From an uncultured Paracoccaceae bacterium (GTDB taxonomy: Bacteria; Pseudomonadota; Alphaproteobacteria; Rhodobacterales; Rhodobacteraceae), in the NCBI GenBank assembly GCA_947489705.1, contig CANLEQ010000022.1, positions 1 through 62,203 of the forward strand: a stretch of DNA of 62,203 nt, written 5' to 3'. Positions 1,379 through 9,757 of the stretch are shown piece after piece. How positions within the stretch are numbered: the stretch's first letter is position 1; each line of letters begins with the position of its first letter. A program made the position numbers and the translations under genes. The notes under the pieces were generated by a model, which made no database searches, was not told the origin of the DNA, and worked only from the letters and a program-made list of their open reading frames with translations.

Positions 1379-1839
1379 CTCTTCTGTCTTTTGTGGACGA
1401 GCTTGCCAGTCGGTCGCGGCACCTTCCGGCGCAGACGGATGGAGGACGATCTCGGCGAAAGAGGCTTCCATTTTCATGCCCGCTTGATGGGCGACGTGAT
1501 CAATACGCGTGCAAGAAGCGGAAGCTTCGCGAAGTTCGTGCCCATTCCGGCGGCAGGTCGTCCCAGTCTGGTGTGTCTCTCGGACGGGATCGCGAAGACG
1601 TCTCGGAGACGATCCGCCGGGGTCTTACCAACGAGAAGGAGGAAGCGGGATGGGCGTTTGCCTGGCCGTAACGAACGCAATGCGGAGAATCATGATTATG
1701 TAATTACGCAAAGCGGTCTTCGTCCCCGGCTGCGGCGTGTCCGAGCGCCGACATGGCTTGCCCGCTGGGATCTAAATCGCACCCGCTTTCACGTCGTGTA
1801 AACTTCGGCGGAGCATAAGGTTTCGAACGGAGGCCAACC
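1379..1839. other. Intergenic stretch upstream of pyp
   Basis: About 460 bases with no convincing gene. The left part is continuous with the decayed ABC relic. The right part, more AT-rich from about 1680 to 1830, should contain the promoter of the pyp operon, but I see no clear sigma-70 hexamers. An ACGGAGG-like ribosome binding site lies just before the ATG at 1840. Confidence 0.5.
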
Positions 1840-2208
1840 ATGCTCGACAACATTTCCCAATTCGAAACGATCAGTTTGCAGGATCTGGAAGCGATGGAGG
1901 ATGACGAGCGCGATCGGCTTTCCTTCGGTGTGATCGGCATGCAGGCGGATACCGTCGCGGATGTCTACAACGCCACGGAATCGCAGATGTCCGGGGTGGC
2001 GCCGGACTCGGTGCTCGGCGTGCCGTTCTTCGAAACCATCGGCCAATGCATGAACAACTTCATGGTCGCCCAGCGTTTCGAGGACGAGCGGGAGCTCGAC
2101 GATATCGTTCCTTATGTCCTGACCCTGCGTATGCGGCCGCAACGGGTGCGCCTGCGTCTTCTCGCCTCGGCGGACATCTCGCGGCAATACATCCTCGTCG
2201 AGCGTTGA
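1840..2208 (+). CDS. pyp: Photoactive yellow protein (blue-light photoreceptor)
   Basis: A 122-residue protein matching the length and fold pattern of photoactive yellow protein, a small cytoplasmic PAS-fold receptor carrying a thioester-linked p-coumaric acid. The residues that define the family are present: Cys70 (chromophore anchor, Cys69 in Halorhodospira PYP) in FFETIGQCMNNF, and Tyr43 and Glu47 (Tyr42 and Glu46, which hydrogen-bond the phenolate) in DVYNATES. Thr50 is conservatively replaced by Ser51, and Arg52, which gates the chromophore pocket, is Val53. The C-terminus keeps the MxPxxVxxxxxxA strand pattern. It is the first gene of a tight operon with a GGDEF protein (17-base gap) and the PYP-specific ligase. 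Conserved photochemistry residues make a functional receptor likely; its output partner is inferred from context. Confidence 0.95.
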   Translation: MLDNISQFETISLQDLEAMEDDERDRLSFGVIGMQADTVADVYNATESQMSGVAPDSVLGVPFFETIGQCMNNFMVAQRFEDERELDDIVPYVLTLRMRPQRVRLRLLASADISRQYILVER

Positions 2209-2225
2209 CCCAAGGGAATGAGCTT

Positions 2226-3503
2226 ATGTCGAACGACGAGAAGCTGCTGCAGTTTCTGTATGCCTGCCCCGTCGGGCTGATCGAGTTCGACGCGTCGGGT
2301 CGCATCACGATGATAAATCCGCATGCGATGCAGCACCTTCTGCCGCTGGGCGGGCCTGCTGCCAGCGAGAATTTCTTCACCGCGATGGAGAATTGCGCGC
2401 CGGAATTGCGCAGCATCGCGGGGAGCTACACGTCGGATCATGGAACCATCCGCGGCAGCCACCGCATATTCGTGGATCTGGCCGAGAAGCGCCGGAAGGG
2501 ACGGCCCCAGGTCCTCTCCTGTTCGCTCGTGAAGCTCGGGGCCGAACGGTTCATGGCGACCCTCAGCGATATCAGCGACGAGGTCGCGCGCGAACACCGT
2601 TTGCGCCAGGCGGATACGTGGTTCTCCGCATTGATCGACGGGATCAACGATTACGGCGTCATCGTCGTCTCGGGCGACCTGACCGTCATCTCGGCAAACC
2701 GCTCTTTCTCCAGACAGACAGGACGATCCTTCGAGCAGGTGATAGGACGGTCCGTTGGGGACATCCTGTTGACCCCGGATGCGGATGATCCCGGGATGGA
2801 CAGCGTGGAGGACCAGTTCTGCATGGCCGCCCGGGACGGCTGGAACCTCTACGAGGGCTGGGAGCGGCGCGCGAATGGCGAACGCTACTGGTGCCAGCGG
2901 CTGATCGTCGTCCGCGACGAAGACGAAAAGGCGGGGGACTCGACGTTCTCCGTGATCTTGCGGGACGTTCCGCCGCGCGAGAGCGATTCAGGCGATCTGA
3001 TAACCATGCTGACGCGGGACGACCTCACCGGGGCGTCCAACCGGATGTATTTTCACAAGACGCTTCGGCGCGAAAAGCTGCGGTGGCAAAGCCGGAAAGA
3101 TCCGCTTTCGCTGGTCATGCTCGATCTCGATCATTTCAAGGCGATCAACGACCGTTTCGGTCATCCCGGCGGTGATGCGGTCCTTTGCGCCGTGGCGCGG
3201 ACCGCGCTGGCCATGAAACCCGCAAATGCGGTATTCGCCCGTCTCGGGGGCGAGGAATTCGCGCTTCTGTTGCCCGGGCGGGGATTGCAGGAGGCTTCCA
3301 GGATCGCGTCGGATCTCTGCGACGCGATCGCACGGACGCCGATCGAGGCGGCCCAAGGGAAGATCACGGTCACCGCGAGCCTTGGCTGCGCCGAACTCGG
3401 CGAAGTGCAGGGATCGACCGACGACCTCATCGAACTGGCCGACAGTCGACTTTACCACGTGAAACGCACCGGGCGGAATCGCGTGCTCGCGACGACGCCA
3501 TGA
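2226..3503 (+). CDS. PAS-PAS-GGDEF diguanylate cyclase
   Basis: A 425-residue soluble protein without membrane segments. Residues about 5-120 and 130-250 form two PAS-like domains, and residues about 262-420 are a GGDEF domain with the active-site loop GGEEF at 341-345, metal and substrate residues in LDLDHFKAINDRFGH (299-313) and the DDLTGASNR signature before it. It should make cyclic di-GMP from two GTP. The RxxD inhibitory site normally nine residues before GGDEF is absent, so product feedback inhibition is not expected. It sits between pyp and the PYP chromophore ligase; its stop overlaps the next ATG (ATGA at 3500). An AAGGGAA ribosome site precedes the chosen ATG; longer upstream reading would overlap pyp. 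A role as PYP output is inference. Confidence 0.92.
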   Translation: MSNDEKLLQFLYACPVGLIEFDASGRITMINPHAMQHLLPLGGPAASENFFTAMENCAPELRSIAGSYTSDHGTIRGSHRIFVDLAEKRRKGRPQVLSCSLVKLGAERFMATLSDISDEVAREHRLRQADTWFSALIDGINDYGVIVVSGDLTVISANRSFSRQTGRSFEQVIGRSVGDILLTPDADDPGMDSVEDQFCMAARDGWNLYEGWERRANGERYWCQRLIVVRDEDEKAGDSTFSVILRDVPPRESDSGDLITMLTRDDLTGASNRMYFHKTLRREKLRWQSRKDPLSLVMLDLDHFKAINDRFGHPGGDAVLCAVARTALAMKPANAVFARLGGEEFALLLPGRGLQEASRIASDLCDAIARTPIEAAQGKITVTASLGCAELGEVQGSTDDLIELADSRLYHVKRTGRNRVLATTP

Positions 3504-4651
3504 GGTCCGGTCGACTGCCCCGGGCCGCGCTTCGCCGTCTCGTCGCGGCCCTGATCGACGTGGAGATGCAGCGTCAGCGCGGTGGTCGAGGGGCCCTCGC
3601 CTCGGGTCCGACTGAATGCCTCGAACTCGATTCGCTCGAACGGCTTGGCGTGGTGGCGATCCTGCACGAGACATTCGATCTGCCGAACGATGCCTTCGGA
3701 GAGGAGCCCTTCGATACGCTCGACGAATGGGTGGACGCAATCGCGGCGCGGCAACCCAGCCGGCTGGTGGCAAGGACGTCGGGATCGACCGGACGGCCCC
3801 GCCCCTGCTCGCACGACATCGCCGACCTGATGGCGGAAGCGGCATGGTTCGCCGAGCAAGTGCCGGAATGCCAGCGCGTGGTGGCTATGGTACCGGCGAC
3901 GCACCTTTACGGGATTGTCTGGACGGCGCTCCTGCCCGGGCTGATGGGCGTGCCCGTTCTCGAGGCGGCAATCGGCAGGCTGCCGCCGCTGCAGGCGCAC
4001 GACATGATCGTCGCGGTACCCGAACAATGGAGTGCGCTTCTGCGGGTATGCTCGAACTGGCCCCCGAACGTCATCGGCGTGAATTCCGCCGGACCGCTCG
4101 GTGAGGGCATTGCCGCGGCCGCAATGGATGCGGGTCTCGCGAAGATGATCGACGTCTACGGATCCACGGAAACCGGCGCGATCGGCATGCGCCACGCTCT
4201 CGAAGACGGATATGCATTGCTGCCGCACTGGCGCATCGGCGAAGACAAAGGCGAGCCGCAGCTTGTGTCCCGGGACGGACGGCGTCTGGGCTTTCCGGAC
4301 CGCATCGCGTTTCTGGATGAGGGGCGTTTCAAGCCGACCGGGCGTTTCGACGGCGCCGTGCAGGTGGGCGGTCTCAACGTCTATCCCCTCCATGTCGCCA
4401 CACGGCTGAAAAGCGTTCCGGGCGTGGAGGATGCGGCTGTCCGTCTCGGCTCGAACGGGCGGCTCAAGGCCTTTCTGGTCCCTGCCGAAGGCCATCTTCC
4501 CGCGGATATCGAGACGAGCGTCCGCCAACTCGCGAGAGAGCATTTCGGCCCGGCCGAGCGCCCGTCGCATTTGAGCTTCGGACCGGCCCTTCCGAAAAAC
4601 GCCATGGGGAAGCTGTCCGACTGGAGCGAGACCGCGCCCGCAGACGGCTAG
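3500..4651 (+). CDS. pcl: p-Coumarate:CoA ligase for PYP chromophore activation
   Basis: A 383-residue ANL-superfamily adenylating enzyme, shorter than plant 4CL or acyl-CoA ligases (about 540) but in keeping with the PYP-activation family. Visible motifs: phosphate loop TSGSTGRPR (93-101), YGSTETG (220-226), the PTGRFDG hinge region (279-285) and PKNAMGK with catalytic Lys371. It activates p-coumaric acid to the CoA thioester that is transferred to the PYP cysteine. The first 85 residues are not a canonical ligase N-domain. They contain LDSLERLGVVAILHETF around Ser45, which resembles an acyl-carrier-protein phosphopantetheine site. The ATG overlaps the cyclase stop, implying translational coupling. 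No tyrosine ammonia-lyase gene, the usual third member, is in this window. Confidence 0.92.
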   Translation: MRSGRLPRAALRRLVAALIDVEMQRQRGGRGALASGPTECLELDSLERLGVVAILHETFDLPNDAFGEEPFDTLDEWVDAIAARQPSRLVARTSGSTGRPRPCSHDIADLMAEAAWFAEQVPECQRVVAMVPATHLYGIVWTALLPGLMGVPVLEAAIGRLPPLQAHDMIVAVPEQWSALLRVCSNWPPNVIGVNSAGPLGEGIAAAAMDAGLAKMIDVYGSTETGAIGMRHALEDGYALLPHWRIGEDKGEPQLVSRDGRRLGFPDRIAFLDEGRFKPTGRFDGAVQVGGLNVYPLHVATRLKSVPGVEDAAVRLGSNGRLKAFLVPAEGHLPADIETSVRQLAREHFGPAERPSHLSFGPALPKNAMGKLSDWSETAPADG

Positions 4652-4747
4652 CATCGCGATGCCACGGGCTGGCCCCGTAAGTGGCTCCCGAAGACACGAG
4701 GGAAGCCAGGTTTGCCGCCATCGCAAGGACGCCGAGAACGGCGTGGG

Positions 4748-5710
4748 TCATTCCAGAACGCGAATCGGCGCGCCTGCCTTCCACGCAGCCACCGCCTCCG
4801 CCATCTGAGTGTAGAACAGCCGGAACGTCTGTTCGCTGACATAACCGATATGGGGCGTCAGCAGCAATCGCCCCTCGGCGATCAATGCCGGGTCTCGCAA
4901 CGGATCATCGGACGGAAGCGGTTCGACTTCGTAGACGTCCACGGCAGCTGAATGAGGCCGGCCCTCCCGCAGTCCGTCGAGCAACGCCGCGCTGTCGACG
5001 ATCGGCCCGCGCGACGTGTTGATGAACGCCGCACCGGGCTTCATCGCGGCGAACGCCTCGCGTCCGATGAGCCCCCGCGTCCGGTCGGACAACAGAAGAT
5101 GGACCGAGGCAACATCCGACCGGGACATGATCTCGTCGAGACTTGCGCAGAATGTCGCCCCATGCGCCGCGGCACGATCGGGGGTCAGATTCTCCGACCA
5201 GGCGCAGATTCCCATCCCGAAGGGCCGCGCAAGCGCCGCGACCTTCTGGCCGACCTTCCCGAGCCCGATCAGACCGAGCGTCAATCCCTGAAGATCGCGC
5301 CCCATCCCCGTCTGCCAGCCGCCGGAGGCGATGTTTCCCGCCTCGGGGACGATTCGCCGGCCGAGCCCCAGCATCGTCGCCATGAAGAATTCCGCCGTGG
5401 TGGTCCCGCGCATTTCGGTGCCGCAAACGCAGATACCCAGCTCTTGCGCCGCCCGGAGGTCGATGGACTGGTTGCGCAGCCCGGACGCCACGATCAGGCG
5501 AAGGTTCGGCAGCGCGCGCAGCACGTCACCCGGCAGGGGTGTCCGTTCGCGCATGACACAGAGAACCTCGAACGGTTCCAGCCGCGCGACCAGCGCCTCG
5601 GGGTCTGCGACGGTATCATGGAACGCGACGACGTCGCCGAGCGCCGACCAGTCGGCGAACGAGCTGGCCACCCCCGCATAATCGTCGAGAAGGGCGATGG
5701 ATGTCGTCAT
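4748..5710 (-). CDS. D-2-hydroxyacid dehydrogenase family protein
   Basis: A 320-residue NAD(P)-dependent dehydrogenase of the D-isomer-specific 2-hydroxyacid family, which reduces 2-oxoacids to D-2-hydroxyacids or the reverse. The Rossmann motif LGLIGLGKVGQKVA lies near residues 145-158. The catalytic set is visible as Arg in NTSRGPIVD, Glu in DVYEVEPL and His in LTPHIGYVSE. The ATG overlaps the end of a short upstream reading frame (ATGA), and the gene is last in the minus-strand tct cluster, so it probably acts on the carboxylate imported by that system or on a product of it. The exact substrate (glyoxylate/hydroxypyruvate, phosphoglycerate-like or other) cannot be read from the sequence. 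Confidence 0.9.
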   Translation of the reverse strand: MTTSIALLDDYAGVASSFADWSALGDVVAFHDTVADPEALVARLEPFEVLCVMRERTPLPGDVLRALPNLRLIVASGLRNQSIDLRAAQELGICVCGTEMRGTTTAEFFMATMLGLGRRIVPEAGNIASGGWQTGMGRDLQGLTLGLIGLGKVGQKVAALARPFGMGICAWSENLTPDRAAAHGATFCASLDEIMSRSDVASVHLLLSDRTRGLIGREAFAAMKPGAAFINTSRGPIVDSAALLDGLREGRPHSAAVDVYEVEPLPSDDPLRDPALIAEGRLLLTPHIGYVSEQTFRLFYTQMAEAVAAWKAGAPIRVLE

Positions 5711-5876
5711 GCCGGCTCCTCCCCGTCCCAGTCGACCGGGCCATCGAGATAGCGCAGGCCCTTCGCCGCGAGCTTATCTCGGAGGTTCAGAAGGTCGAGC
5801 GTCCGCCCGCCTCGCGCAGGCCGTCGATCACCTCGGCTTCCGCCCTGAGGATCTCGCGAATGGCCATTCCCATCAT
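5707..5876 (-). pseudogene. Short frameshifted reading frame between tctA and the dehydrogenase
   Basis: From ATG at 5876 (or 5873), preceded by an AAAGGGA ribosome site, a frame begins MGMAIREILRAEAEVIDGL and runs to a stop at 5787. If one base is corrected near 5805 it continues as LNLRDKLAAKGLRYLDG and ends at 5707, overlapping the dehydrogenase start by ATGA. The corrected product would be about 56 residues. I do not recognise it. The in-phase junction with both neighbours suggests it was once a translated small gene or the stump of a larger deleted one. No upstream stop separates it from the tctA frame. Confidence 0.4.
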
Positions 5877-7411
5877 TGTCGGACGTCCCTTTAAGTCACT
5901 GTGTTTCGGTTGCCCGGAGACCGGACGGTTGGGGCGCATGACGCCCCAGAGCACCCAGCCGAGCATCAGGACCGTGAGCGCCAGGAACACCGCGCTGACC
6001 GGCCGCTCCAGAAAGATCATCGCGTCGCCCCGGCTCAGCAGCAGCGATCGGCGCAGGTTCTCCTCGATCATCGGTCCAAGGATGAAGCCCATGAGCAGCG
6101 GCGCGGCCTCGAACCCCAGGCGCATCAGCAGGAAGCCGACGCCGGACATCCCCGCCACCAGCAACACGTCGAAGATCGACCGCTTGAGGCTGTAGACGCC
6201 CACGCAGATGAGCAGGATGATCGAGGGGAAGAGCAGCCGGTAGGGAAGCTGAGGGTCCTCACCCAGAGCTGAATGAGCGGTATGTTGAGGATCAGCAGCA
6301 TCAGGTTGCCGATCAGGAAGCTGACGACGAGCCCCCAGGAGAGATCCGGACTCTCGGTGACCACACGCGGCCCCGGAGCGATGCCGTGGATGAGCAGTGC
6401 CCCGAGCATCAGCGCCATGATCGCGTCGCCAGGGATGCCGAGGGTCAGGGTCGGAATGAAGGCCGATTGCGCGGCCGCGTTGTTGGCGCTTTCGGGCGCG
6501 GAGATCCCCGCGATGTTTCCGGTTCCGAACGTCTCGGGCGCACGCGAGGTGCGCTTCTCGACCGCATAGGCCATGAACGAGGCCATAAAGCCGCCGCCCG
6601 TCCCGGGCAGAAGGCCGACGCCGGTTCCGACCGCCGCGCCGCGCACCAACGGCCAGGGCGGCTAGCGCCATTCGTCGCGTGTCGGCATGAGGGAACGCCA
6701 GCTCACGACGGAATTTCCGCCTCCCGCGCCGGCGCCGCTGCCGACGGAGGAGATGACTTCCGTCACGCCGAAGAGAGCCATCGCGATCACGATGATGCTG
6801 ATGCCGTCCATCAGTTCGGGCGACCCGAAGGTCATCCGCATGGTGCCGGAATTCACGTCGATGCCGACCAGACCGACGATGAGACCCAGAAGCATGCTCG
6901 CGAACCCCATCGTCGGCTTGCCCTGGCCGATCGATCCGGCGGCGACAAGGCCCAGCACCATCATCGAGAAATAATCGGCCGAGTGGAAGTTCATGGCGAC
7001 GCGCGCGAGCGGCGGCGCCAGAAAGATCAGCACGACGATCGCCACGCACGAACCGAAGAAGGACGCGATCGTCGTGATCATGAGGGCGGATCCCGCCCGG
7101 CCCTTCTGCGCCATGGGATAGCCGTCGAGGCAGATGACCGCGGACGAGGCCGTTCCGGGCAGGTTGAGCAGCATCGACGCGATGGATCCGCCATATTGCG
7201 CGCCGTAATAGATGCCCGCCAGCATCACGAGGGCGGCGGTGGCCGGCACGTGGAACGTGAGCGGCATCAGAAGCGAGATCGCCGCGAGATGCCCGATCCC
7301 GGGCAGGACGCCGACGATCATGCCGACCGACACGCCCACGAAACAGTAGAACAGGTTCTCGAGCGACATCGCCGTGACGAAGCCGAGCTGCAGACTGTCG
7401 ATCAGGGTCAT
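5787..7411 (-). pseudogene. tctA: TctA-family large membrane subunit of a TTT transporter, broken
   Basis: Clear TctA homology along its length: MTLIDSLQLGFVTAMSLENL at the start, GVLPGIGHLAAISLLMPLTF, YYGAQYGGSIASMLLNLPG and later NAAAQSAFIPTLTLGIPGDA, with the expected run of membrane helices. TctA normally forms the channel of tripartite tricarboxylate transporters. Two lesions are visible: an in-frame TAG at 6664-6662 after TRDEWR, with homology resuming immediately in the same frame, and a one-base frameshift near 6252 after PLIQLWVRTL. The start overlaps the tctB stop as TGATG. No upstream stop ends the C-terminal frame until 5787, so it may run past the original terminus. With tctB also shifted, true decay is more likely than isolated sequencing error, but assembly error is not excluded. 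Confidence 0.85.
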
Positions 7412-7861
7412 CAGAGGGTCCATTCGATGAACGGCACCGGCACGCCGAGCAGCCAGGCGAAGAGCAGCCAGACCGCCGGGACGAGGACGAGTGCCAGAAC
7501 CAGCAAGCCCAACCGTCGGTCTGCGGGCCTGCGCGAGGCCCGCGATCAGGACCGTCGCGACCCCGGCGGGGCCGAGGCCCGTCTTCGGCAGAACGACGGC
7601 GAATGCGACGATCGCGAACGGCATGACGAAAAGCGCCCGCCAGGGCGGGGCCGGCAGCGCCTCGCGCTCCCGTGCGGCACCGATCAGGATCAGCACGCCC
7701 ACAAGGCACATCAACCCGCCGAGGAGCACCGGAAAGAAACCGGGGCCCATCTGGCGCGGCGTGCCGATGCCGTAATCCATGGTGACGTGGACGACCCCCG
7801 CCCCGATGGCAATCGTCGCGAAGCCGGCGAGGGCCTCCTTCGAGCCTAGATAACCTGTCAT
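7411..7861 (-). pseudogene. tctB: TctB-family small membrane subunit of a TTT transporter, frameshifted
   Basis: Starts MTGYLGSKEALAGFATIAIG after a strong AGGAGG-type site and contains the typical TctB pattern GIGTPRQMGPGFFPVLLGG and four hydrophobic segments. After the residues RRPTVGL (about 7515) the frame must shift by one base to continue as LLVLALVLVPAVWLLFAW and reach the natural end FIEWTL at the TGATG junction with tctA. Unshifted, translation would run into the tctA frame and make a TctB-TctA fusion. The subunit is needed with TctA for uptake, so the system is predicted inactive unless frameshifting or sequence error is involved. Confidence 0.85.
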
Positions 7862-7932
7862 CGCGGGCCTCCTCTCCCTGCGGGCTCTTGGATCCGGGGC
7901 ACGTGCCGAGCGGCACACCCCGGATGCCGCGA

Positions 7933-8895
7933 TCACTCGGCGGTAATGCCTGCCTCGTCGATGATGGTCGCGAATTGACCGCGCAGCGTATCGAGCATTG
8001 CGACGAAGTCCTCGCGCTCCATCGGCGAGACGAGCGCGCCGCGGGCGCCGAACGTCTCCGCCGCTTCATCCGAGTTCAAGAAGGCCACCACGTCGGTGTG
8101 GATCTTCTCGACGACATCCTCGGGCGTTCCGGCCGGCGCGAAGAGACCGGCCCACTGGCCGGCGGCCACATTCGGAACGCCGCTTTCGATCAAGGTCGGC
8201 ACATCGGGGTGGGACTCGACCCGCTCCGCCCGCGCCACGCCGAGGATGCGGATGTCCCCGCTATCGACGAAAGGCCCCACGGACGACAATGCGACCACGC
8301 CCACCTCGACCTCGTCCGAAGCGACGGCCGTCGCCGCGGGTGCTCCGCCGCGATAGGGGATGTGGATCGTCTCGAGATCCATTTCGTAGTTGATCCATTC
8401 CGGCACAATATGGTTCAGGGACCCAATTCCGGCCGACCCGAAACTGAGCTCGCCGGGCGTGGCGCGCGCCGCCTCGACATAGTCGGCGACGGTTTCGAAC
8501 GGGGTATCGGCATTTGCGGCCAGCACCAGGGGCGTATCCGATATCATCGTGATCGGCATGAAATCCGTGGCGGCGTCGTAGGGGACGTCATCGAAGAGCG
8601 CCGGATTTATGACGTTCACCCCCATATCCGAGACGAAGAGCGTATGACCGTCGGGTTCCGACTGCGCGACCGCCGTGGCCGCGATGAAGCCCGCGCCGCC
8701 CGTTCGGTTGTCGACGATGACTTCCTCGCCCCATTCCCGCGACATCGCCTCCGCCACGGTGCGTGCGGCGATGTCGGCGATGCCGCCGGGCGCGTAGGGG
8801 ACGATGATGGTCACGGTCTCGCGCGGCCAGTCCTGTGCGAGGGCCGGAGCGGCCAAGAGCACGGCGCCTACGGCACCGCAAAGCAGCCTGTTCAT
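7933..8895 (-). CDS. tctC: TctC-family periplasmic binding protein of the TTT transporter
   Basis: A 320-residue Bug/TctC-type solute receptor with a signal peptide (MNRLLCGAVGAVLLAAPALA, cleavage expected after residue 20). Family signatures are present: TIIVPYAPGGIADIAARTVA near the mature start, VDNRTGGAGFIAATAVA and GSAGIGSLNH. Such proteins capture carboxylates in the periplasm for the TctAB permease. The start at 8895 is supported by GGGAGG eight bases upstream; an upstream extension to 9060 is in frame but would run through the divergent promoter. This gene is intact although tctB and tctA downstream are broken. Transcription is divergent from a GntR regulator with a palindromic operator between them. 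Confidence 0.93.
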   Translation of the reverse strand: MNRLLCGAVGAVLLAAPALAQDWPRETVTIIVPYAPGGIADIAARTVAEAMSREWGEEVIVDNRTGGAGFIAATAVAQSEPDGHTLFVSDMGVNVINPALFDDVPYDAATDFMPITMISDTPLVLAANADTPFETVADYVEAARATPGELSFGSAGIGSLNHIVPEWINYEMDLETIHIPYRGGAPAATAVASDEVEVGVVALSSVGPFVDSGDIRILGVARAERVESHPDVPTLIESGVPNVAAGQWAGLFAPAGTPEDVVEKIHTDVVAFLNSDEAAETFGARGALVSPMEREDFVAMLDTLRGQFATIIDEAGITAE

Positions 8896-8960
8896 GTGAT
8901 CCTCCCAGGATCGTTCTACGGAGCGGGGCCACAGAAAGGCACCAGCCGGGCCCGTGAAAT

Positions 8961-8975
8961 ATTGGTGCAACCAAT
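8961..8975. promoter_or_regulatory. Probable GntR/FCD operator between tctC and its regulator
   Basis: ATTGGTGCAACCAAT is a perfect inverted repeat (6-bp arms, 3-bp spacer). It fits the TTGGT-N3-ACCAA form known for FCD-type GntR regulators such as PdhR and GlcC. A further half-site, AATTGGTCA, starts at 8981. The site lies 66 bases upstream of tctC and 84 bases upstream of the GntR start, as expected for control of both promoters. Confidence 0.7.
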
Positions 8976-9058
8976 CTGGCAATTGGTCAGGAAAAATCTT
9001 GCCGGGTGCTGCAAAGCGCGATATTGGAAAACCAGAACAGCAATGGTCATCAATCGTC

Positions 9059-9757
9059 ATGTCCTCAAGTCATTCAGCCCTGGTCCAGCTTCGCGCCTTC
9101 CTCGCGCAGCCCCAGATGATGCCGAACACGAAGCTTCCACCGGAACGCGAACTCGCCGAGCAGATCGGCGTGACGCGCGGCCAGCTACGTAAGGCACTGG
9201 CGGTTCTGGAGGGAGAGGGCCTGCTTTGGCGGCATGTCGGCAAGGGCACGTTCGTAGGAAGCGCACAGCCTTTCGAAATGATCAGTCTCGCGGAGATCGC
9301 GAGAATTTCCAGTCCGGCAGAGGTCATGCGCACCCGTCTGGTGGTCGAGCCGGCCCTTTGCTCGGAGGCGGCCGTCCAGGCAACGACCAACGATATCAGG
9401 TTCTTGCGTGAGTGTTCTTCGGACAGTCGCGCAGCCCAGACCTGGCGGGAATACGAGTCCTGCGACAACCGGCTGCACAAGGCGATTGCGGATGCCGCGA
9501 ACAATCCGATCACGTCGGCGCTCTTCGACATGGTCGCGGGGATCCGCCGTACGGTCGTATGGGGCCGATTGCGCCCCGATCGCGCCCGGCCTGCCCCCGA
9601 TCACCACTCCTTCGCGGAACACGACGCGATCATAGAGGCGATCGAACAGCGTGATCCGGCCGCGGCCCGTGCACGGATGCATCGGCATCTCGCCTCGGTG
9701 GAGCGACATCTCTTCGCGCCCGACGACCGCGGTCGAGCGGAAACCGCCCGCGGGTGA
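9059..9757 (+). CDS. GntR/FadR-family transcriptional regulator (FCD domain)
   Basis: A 232-residue regulator. Residues about 8-75 form the GntR winged helix (KLPPERELAEQIGVTRGQLR then LEGEGLLWRHVGKGTFV), and the rest is the all-helical FCD ligand domain, with metal-ligand-type residues in MRTRLVVEP, the NRLHKAIADAANNP block and FAEHDAIIEAIEQRD. FCD regulators usually sense organic acids. The ATG at 9059 is chosen because the operator lies upstream; an in-frame extension to 8954 would translate through it. It is divergent to tctC and upstream of the RraA and FAH genes, so it probably controls the whole cluster, releasing DNA when the imported acid or a metabolite binds. Confidence 0.9.
   Translation: MSSSHSALVQLRAFLAQPQMMPNTKLPPERELAEQIGVTRGQLRKALAVLEGEGLLWRHVGKGTFVGSAQPFEMISLAEIARISSPAEVMRTRLVVEPALCSEAAVQATTNDIRFLRECSSDSRAAQTWREYESCDNRLHKAIADAANNPITSALFDMVAGIRRTVVWGRLRPDRARPAPDHHSFAEHDAIIEAIEQRDPAAARARMHRHLASVERHLFAPDDRGRAETARG

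Follow-up and report, generated by a model that had tools for sequence, protein, structure and literature searches.

A near-constant PAS domain companion of clade-C photoactive yellow protein in a putative light-to-c-di-GMP module

An uncultured Paracoccaceae bacterium (Alphaproteobacteria, Rhodobacterales) carries the genes of a photoactive yellow protein (PYP), a diguanylate cyclase and a 4-coumarate:CoA ligase family protein in a row. This three-gene block, pyp-dgc-pcl, was read directly at positions 1840-4651 of a 62,203-nucleotide contig (CANLEQ010000022.1 of assembly GCA_947489705.1), which is called the window here. It was found that the first of the two PAS domains of the cyclase, PAS1, is a near-constant companion of PYPs of the divergent clade C. 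The locus is proposed to be a light-to-cyclic di-GMP (c-di-GMP) module in which the clade-C PYP docks on PAS1 of the cyclase. I give this reading, which was drawn from sequence comparison, a probability of roughly 0.6, with PAS1 as the best candidate for the docking domain.

PAS1 and the clade-C PYP

Twenty-six aligned PAS1 domains served as the query for the distribution of PAS1; the genus and order names of the genome samples follow record titles. Among 151 Sphingomonas genomes (the genus of G774), a strong PAS1 and a strong clade-C PYP occur in the identical 17 genomes, 131 have neither, and three have only weak PYP matches (44-55 bits) and no PAS1. No genome is discordant (Fisher p 8e-23, uncorrected for relatedness), and the PYP and PAS1 matches are spaced by 19-26 nucleotides in all 17 cases. 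Among 62 Massilia genomes (the genus of G776), PYP was found in 53, PAS1 in 54 and neither in eight. In the single PAS1-only genome, G1003, PAS1 runs up to the final base of a contig of 3,683 bases. The Burkholderiales sample (the order of G784; 379 genomes), in which only the PAS1-to-PYP direction was tested, has a strong PAS1 in nine genomes and an adjoining PYP in all nine, three of which are already counted in the Massilia sample. In 385 genomes of the window's class, a strong PAS1 or a strong clade-C PYP was found in the window's own genome only. Thus, the class-wide search contributes negatives only. Weak matches were seen there for PAS1 in 27 further genomes (up to 28.8 bits) and for PYP in 13 (up to 67.4 bits), and were taken as other PAS domains and as classical or fused PYPs. 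The class and order searches were limited to a maximum of 11 scored candidates per genome, and weak PAS1 copies could escape them.

A similar picture was obtained from plasmids. A tblastn search with PAS1 retrieved 13 of 72,556 plasmid records, and the 11 records with an E value of 1e-17 or better all carry a clade-C pyp. The PAS1 of a Massilia GGDEF-EAL protein retrieved the identical 11 records, while PAS2, used as a control, retrieved 299. At 11 loci of classical-type or fused PYPs, no PAS1 or GGDEF match was found within the stretch; pcl lies beside pyp in seven of them and a kinase match in two.

Pfam detects only the second PAS domain of the window cyclase (residues 133-248). No Pfam model recognises the window PAS1, and of the 26 PAS1 members no more than four have a match at E 0.01 (four PAS models, one member each). 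The best solved relative of the PAS1 profile is weak (E 0.002), and the fold-match lists for the cyclase, dominated by GGDEF or PYP matches, scarcely cover residues 1-140. In the AlphaFold model, PAS1 has a PAS-like predicted order, beta-beta-helices-beta-beta-beta-long helix, with 10-residue pLDDT means of 66-92, and 56 at residues 81-90. Over 70 loci, the mean pairwise identity is 0.51 for PAS1, 0.51 for GGDEF and 0.43 for PAS2. The invariant positions of PAS1 are L7, Y12, P15, G17, G25, N31, N49, P59 and D115. An origin of PAS1 as a duplicated PYP was considered and is unsupported (profile comparison probability 12%).

The window PYP is assigned to clade C because the published residue marks are all present in an alignment with 12 classical-type PYPs: the equivalents of Phe92, Phe96 and Trp119 are lost (V90, L94 and Y117) and Met100 is kept (M98). 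These marks are those of PMC9664959, which treats clade C as equal to group 6 of an earlier study and states that a thorough characterisation is still lacking for every member of the clade. In the same alignment, Y43, E47, C70 and M98 correspond to Y42, E46, C69 and M100 of Halorhodospira halophila PYP, while T50 is replaced by S51 and R52 by V53. The window PYP has no Pfam match. It scores 53.5 bits (E 2.3e-14) against NCBIfam TIGR02373, under the equivalog cut-off of 143 bits, and among solved structures it comes closest to the PYP domain of Ppr (1mzu, E 2.2e-9). Y43 is conserved in 82 of 83 clade-C PYPs, and E47, C70 and M98 in all 83, as is a Leu, Ile or Val at the position of Arg52. Several public records annotate clade-C PYPs as 'phosphonate transporter' (L003 4992-5354, L007 4971-5360, L008 5004-5372, L174 5143-5511). 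This label is a misannotation that hides the family.

Recurrence of the locus and the variety of outputs

Is the arrangement of the window common? When genome contigs of 84,980 species were scanned with 10 clade-C PYPs, 270 relatives were confirmed, and the best 80 of the 270 were used for the locus counts. A PAS1 protein is encoded at pyp in all 80 loci. In 77 of them, a PAS1..GGDEF gene lies directly downstream of pyp. The other three are L086, with a PAS1-PAS-GGDEF-EAL protein, L055, whose PAS1 gene is split into frames in a metagenome-assembled genome (MAG), and L073, whose PAS1 gene carries an interruption of about 2 kb. In the flanking DNA that was fetched (on either strand, and sometimes ended by contig edges), pcl is present in 60 loci, a small stand-alone EAL gene in 45 and any EAL match in 59, while no locus has a lyase gene. 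The small EAL protein would contribute the opposite activity. Record titles place the loci in Acidobacteriota, in Alpha-, Beta- and Gammaproteobacteria and, for one MAG, in Deltaproteobacteria. The sequence-only reading, made from the window, would have failed if the GGDEF gene stood beside pyp in this genome only. Instead, a PAS1-cyclase-type gene is found at 80 of 80 loci and, in the relatives examined, follows the clade-C pyp across the three proteobacterial classes and Acidobacteriota, with the ligase gene as a frequent third member.

What varies among the loci is the output. PAS1 is joined to PAS-GGDEF (the window type), to GGDEF-EAL (at least 10 loci), to PAS-GGDEF-EAL, to HisKA-HATPase_c or to no output domain. 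Histidine kinases with PAS1, HisKA and HATPase_c were found at L147, L148, L149 and L154, and those of L147 and L154 follow a PAS1-GGDEF-EAL gene. In two genomes of the Massilia sample (L163 and L164), the cyclase is gone and PAS1-GGDEF-EAL comes immediately after pyp. At L165, L166 and L173, the first gene after pyp encodes PAS1-PAS2, and at L167 PAS1 alone; no GGDEF or other output domain was found in the former three proteins and no output domain in the last. Since PAS1 stays where GGDEF is lost or replaced in some relatives, the constant partner of PYP looks like PAS1, not the cyclase as such. The gene order had earlier been taken to point to the cyclase as the PYP partner. The pairing itself holds widely, and PAS1 gives this reading a sharper form.

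These variants also bear on a different point of contact. PYP might control the c-di-GMP enzyme via PAS2, GGDEF or the linker, and PAS1 would then be conserved in the operon only for dimerisation or targeting. PAS domains often dimerise, and the operon-mates correlate about equally in evolutionary distance. However, PAS1 is retained without PAS2 and/or GGDEF (PAS1-GGDEF-EAL, PAS1-HisKA, PAS1-PAS2 and PAS1 alone), and PAS2 is frequent without PYP while PAS1 is not. This arrangement is considered unlikely. A still less probable case is that PAS1 itself senses a ligand or cofactor and that this signal is combined with the light signal, the PAS1 protein and PYP acting in parallel in one pathway without contact. 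Such a role would suit the common binding of ligands by PAS domains and the EAL genes of the loci. However, the invariant PAS1 positions include no Cys, His or Trp, and no strong PAS1 was found in 134 Sphingomonas and eight Massilia genomes without a strong clade-C PYP (the contig-end case aside). I regard a sensor role of this kind as very unlikely.

In a 63-row tree built from PYP and the cyclase together, the window groups with an uncultured Rhodobacteraceae bacterium and three Salinisphaera (Gammaproteobacteria) with support of 100/100. This grouping hints that the whole module may have been transferred. Within the family to which the window belongs, PYP was detected by protein search in one of 394 genomes, the own genome only. 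Nine of 11 plasmid loci have the cyclase; the others are L009, a clade-C pyp without a cyclase, and L013, a classical PYP with pcl. A twelfth plasmid locus, that of Caballeronia SBC2, is pyp-cyclase-EAL by annotation. IMG/VR viral contigs gave no match with the single PYP and one with the PYP alignment (L094). On this contig, pyp and the cyclase gene lie at the extreme edge (13-1678), and the HMM scores and spacing equal those of the Polymorphobacter multimanifer locus L077. The genes of L094 are probably host flank.

Some records carry more than one pyp. On an Indioceanicola profundi plasmid (L010 1477-6622), a classical pyp, pcl, an aromatic ammonia lyase gene, a clade-C pyp and a GGDEF gene are consecutive, and the last four overlap by one base each. 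In Caballeronia (L008 5004-9433, L174 5143-9513), clade-C pyp-cyclase-EAL lies opposite a classical pyp-pcl pair, and one ligase may serve both receptors. A genome of the Sphingomonas sample, G922, has a second, broken clade-C pyp (L171 4330-4548).

Proposed mechanism and its weak points

A ligase of this family makes the PYP chromophore precursor p-coumaroyl-CoA. In the window, the ligase would convert p-coumarate into p-coumaroyl-CoA, which would load Cys70 of the clade-C PYP. The PYP would dock on the leading domain of the cyclase, PAS1, as their near-exclusive co-occurrence and adjacency suggest. Blue light would then isomerise the chromophore and rearrange the region after Cys70 and around M98. 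In H. halophila PYP, the region after the chromophore Cys and the Met100 loop shift upon illumination. At the corresponding places of clade C, past the chromophore Cys and around the Met100 loop, N72, N73, F74, Q78, R79, D82, R97 and R99 are kept in 98-100% of the 83 PYPs, while the 12 classical PYPs mostly differ or vary there (N72 is N in seven of 12 and R79 is R in three of 12). These nearly invariant residues are assumed to face a partner. The altered fit of PYP and PAS1 may pass via PAS2 and the linker helix to the GGEEF dimer and change c-di-GMP in either direction. The GGDEF domain of the window cyclase scores 138 bits, and its GGEEF motif, a form of the GG(D/E)EF active site, is present in 83 of 83 clade-C-associated cyclases. 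The inhibitory-site RxxD is missing in the window cyclase (PxxA) and present in 46 of these 83 cyclases. Without this product-inhibition site, control of the window cyclase should rest mainly on the PYP input. In relatives, PAS1 would plug PYP into GGDEF-EAL proteins or histidine kinases.

Several observations weigh against docking on PAS1. The evolutionary distance correlation of PYP with PAS1 is 0.80, not above that with PAS2 (0.82) or GGDEF (0.83). It was calculated on 70 non-redundant loci of 83, after eight of 91 loci with a cyclase had been dropped as broken, cut or near-duplicate (L011, L012, L055, L073, L077, L084, L086 and L094). Since all operon genes correlate at 0.80-0.95, the correlation singles out no PAS1 link. 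In an AlphaFold model of a PYP-linker-PAS1 read-through, both domains fold (pTM 0.50) with no confident mutual placement or interface. There are also exceptions to the pairing. L009, on a Comamonadaceae plasmid, has no PAS1 within 5 kb or elsewhere on the record, and the second clade-C pyp of G816 (L160) has none in the 9 kb read; G816 has PAS1 elsewhere. Conversely, G1172 has at L161 a weak PAS1 (85-89 bits) in a PAS1-PAS2-GGDEF protein whose GGDEF motif is degenerate, and the 14 kb read there contain no PYP; this genome carries two other pyp loci. Two weak plasmid PAS1 matches (E 2e-3 and 8e-3), absent from the pyp records, and one weak Burkholderiales match (31.8 bits) may be further exceptions. 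Finally, operon genes co-occur for many reasons, and PAS1 could therefore serve the operon without touching PYP.

A broader form of the docking proposal is that PAS1 is a dedicated, portable PYP-docking domain with plug-in partners (cyclase, cyclase-phosphodiesterase, histidine kinase or output-less protein), to which a coincidence gate of blue light and environmental p-coumarate would be added in lyase-free carriers. I lean only slightly towards this broader form.

The signalling partner of free-standing PYPs is still described as unidentified (PMC13250908 for H. halophila; PMC9664959). In PMC9664959, clade-C PYPs are said to adjoin GGDEF genes often, and light-regulated biofilm formation via c-di-GMP is proposed; the clade-C marks and the adjacent GGDEF gene are as in the window. 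According to PMC12826048, 29 of 113 pyp operons include GGDEF/EAL proteins. The earlier inference of the cyclase as the output of PYP is well supported, yet not new, as the clade-C PYP/GGDEF link is already published; light control of the cyclase and an effect on motility or attachment are its predictions. The two papers treat the cyclase as a neighbour and, in their available portions, do not report a constant, output-switching PAS domain. A PAS1 that stays with clade-C PYP and moves between output types is a finer statement, which was not found in print: titles and abstract openings gave no description of one PAS domain common to PYP partners (the search extended neither to supplements nor to the texts of Meyer 2012 and van der Horst 2009).

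Other light-sensing systems resemble the window in part. The Idiomarina loihiensis PYP is a single-domain protein beside a GGDEF protein with a proposed action on c-di-GMP, like the window PYP, but belongs to clade A; the comparison is by published description only (van der Horst 2009 as cited in PMC9664959 and PMC12826048). The Thermochromatium tepidum Ppd, a PYP-phytochrome-GGDEF-EAL fusion (PMC9664959), also lets PYP feed a c-di-GMP enzyme, as proposed here. However, Ppd is a single chain with a phytochrome, whereas the window has separate proteins and no phytochrome among the three genes. A LOV-activated diguanylate cyclase (PDB 8c05) has its photoreceptor within the same chain, unlike the window. 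With the near-exclusive pairing of PYP and PAS1, studies of binding and structure have a defined target of 125 residues, and the natural fusions of PAS1 to cyclases, phosphodiesterases and kinases suggest a ready two-component optogenetic pair.

Chromophore supply and layout of the window locus

The window ligase matches TIGR02372 over nearly its full length (residues 7-372; 285 bits, E 6e-85), under the equivalog cut-off of 334.7 bits, and its gene adjoins pyp. The pyp-pcl-tal operon of H. halophila (PMC12826048) likewise joins pyp with pcl but has tal and no cyclase, while the window has a cyclase and no lyase was found in its genome. In the window genome, given as 100% complete, no PF00221 lyase (aromatic or histidine) was detected, while control matches were obtained in five of 14. 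Nor was one found in 13 of 25 carrier genomes, which were chosen for spread out of the 80 loci and lack completeness figures. PF00221 also includes the histidine and phenylalanine lyases, so its absence leaves, to my knowledge, no known route from tyrosine or phenylalanine to p-coumarate. Because no aromatic ammonia lyase was found, p-coumarate is probably taken up from outside in the window organism. The lyase-absence counts support p-coumarate uptake, which PMC12826048 raises as a possibility, and suggest that blue-light sensing in some carriers may require phenolics from their surroundings.

Does the module sense p-coumarate instead of, or besides, light? The loading state of PYP would then be the signal, with loading only upon import of the phenolic. 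The lack of a lyase in the window genome and in 13 of the 25 carriers, combined with the frequent pcl, would fit such a sensor, and so would the record titles of several carriers, which name leaf or lichen isolates. However, the photochemistry residues, which are needless for a loading sensor, are kept almost without exception in clade C. A p-coumarate sensor is therefore considered quite unlikely.

The layout had been described from the letters as a PYP with its photochemical residues, a PAS-PAS-GGDEF protein 17 bases downstream and a ligase overlapping the cyclase by ATGA, and direct reading confirmed each of these points (Table 1). The overlap lies at 3500-3503, and GGAGG precedes the ATG of pyp.

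Table 1. Features of the pyp-dgc-pcl locus in the window
Feature	Position	Strand	Description
pyp	1840..2208	+	clade-C photoactive yellow protein (by profile and alignment), 122 aa; direct reading
pyp photochemical codons	Y43 1966-1968, E47 1978-1980, C70 2047-2049	+	M98 also present
Diguanylate cyclase gene (dgc)	2226..3503	+	425 aa, PAS1-PAS2-GGEEF
PAS1	2226..2597	+	aa 1-124; without Pfam match; proposed PYP docking domain
PAS2	2610..2975	+	aa 129-250; ordinary PAS, Pfam-detected, common away from pyp loci
GGDEF domain	2997..3491	+	aa 258-422; GGEEF active-site motif 3246-3260; RxxD replaced by PxxA
pcl	3500..4651	+	4-coumarate:CoA ligase family, 383 aa; ATGA overlap with dgc

A scan of 1450-4900 gave no sigma-70 promoter match (0.4 in shuffles) and terminator matches at chance level. 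Across the window, neither an Rfam nor an EAL match was found.

The DNA 5′ of pyp (1-1480) contains a transposase-like remnant and broken transporter-like frames, labelled by eye. The third-position GC content (GC3) of the operon is 0.77-0.80. Of nine further genes measured in the window, seven have 0.83-0.90, while the pair closest to the operon has 0.78 and 0.80. The remnants, the lower GC3 and the rarity of PYP in the family might indicate a coincidental or decayed neighbourhood without a functional link. This is hardly credible given the intact frames and conserved active sites, and it is contradicted by the wide recurrence of the arrangement. On the other side of the block, genes on the minus strand at 5787-9060 resemble, by eye, a tripartite tricarboxylate-type transporter and are convergent with pcl.

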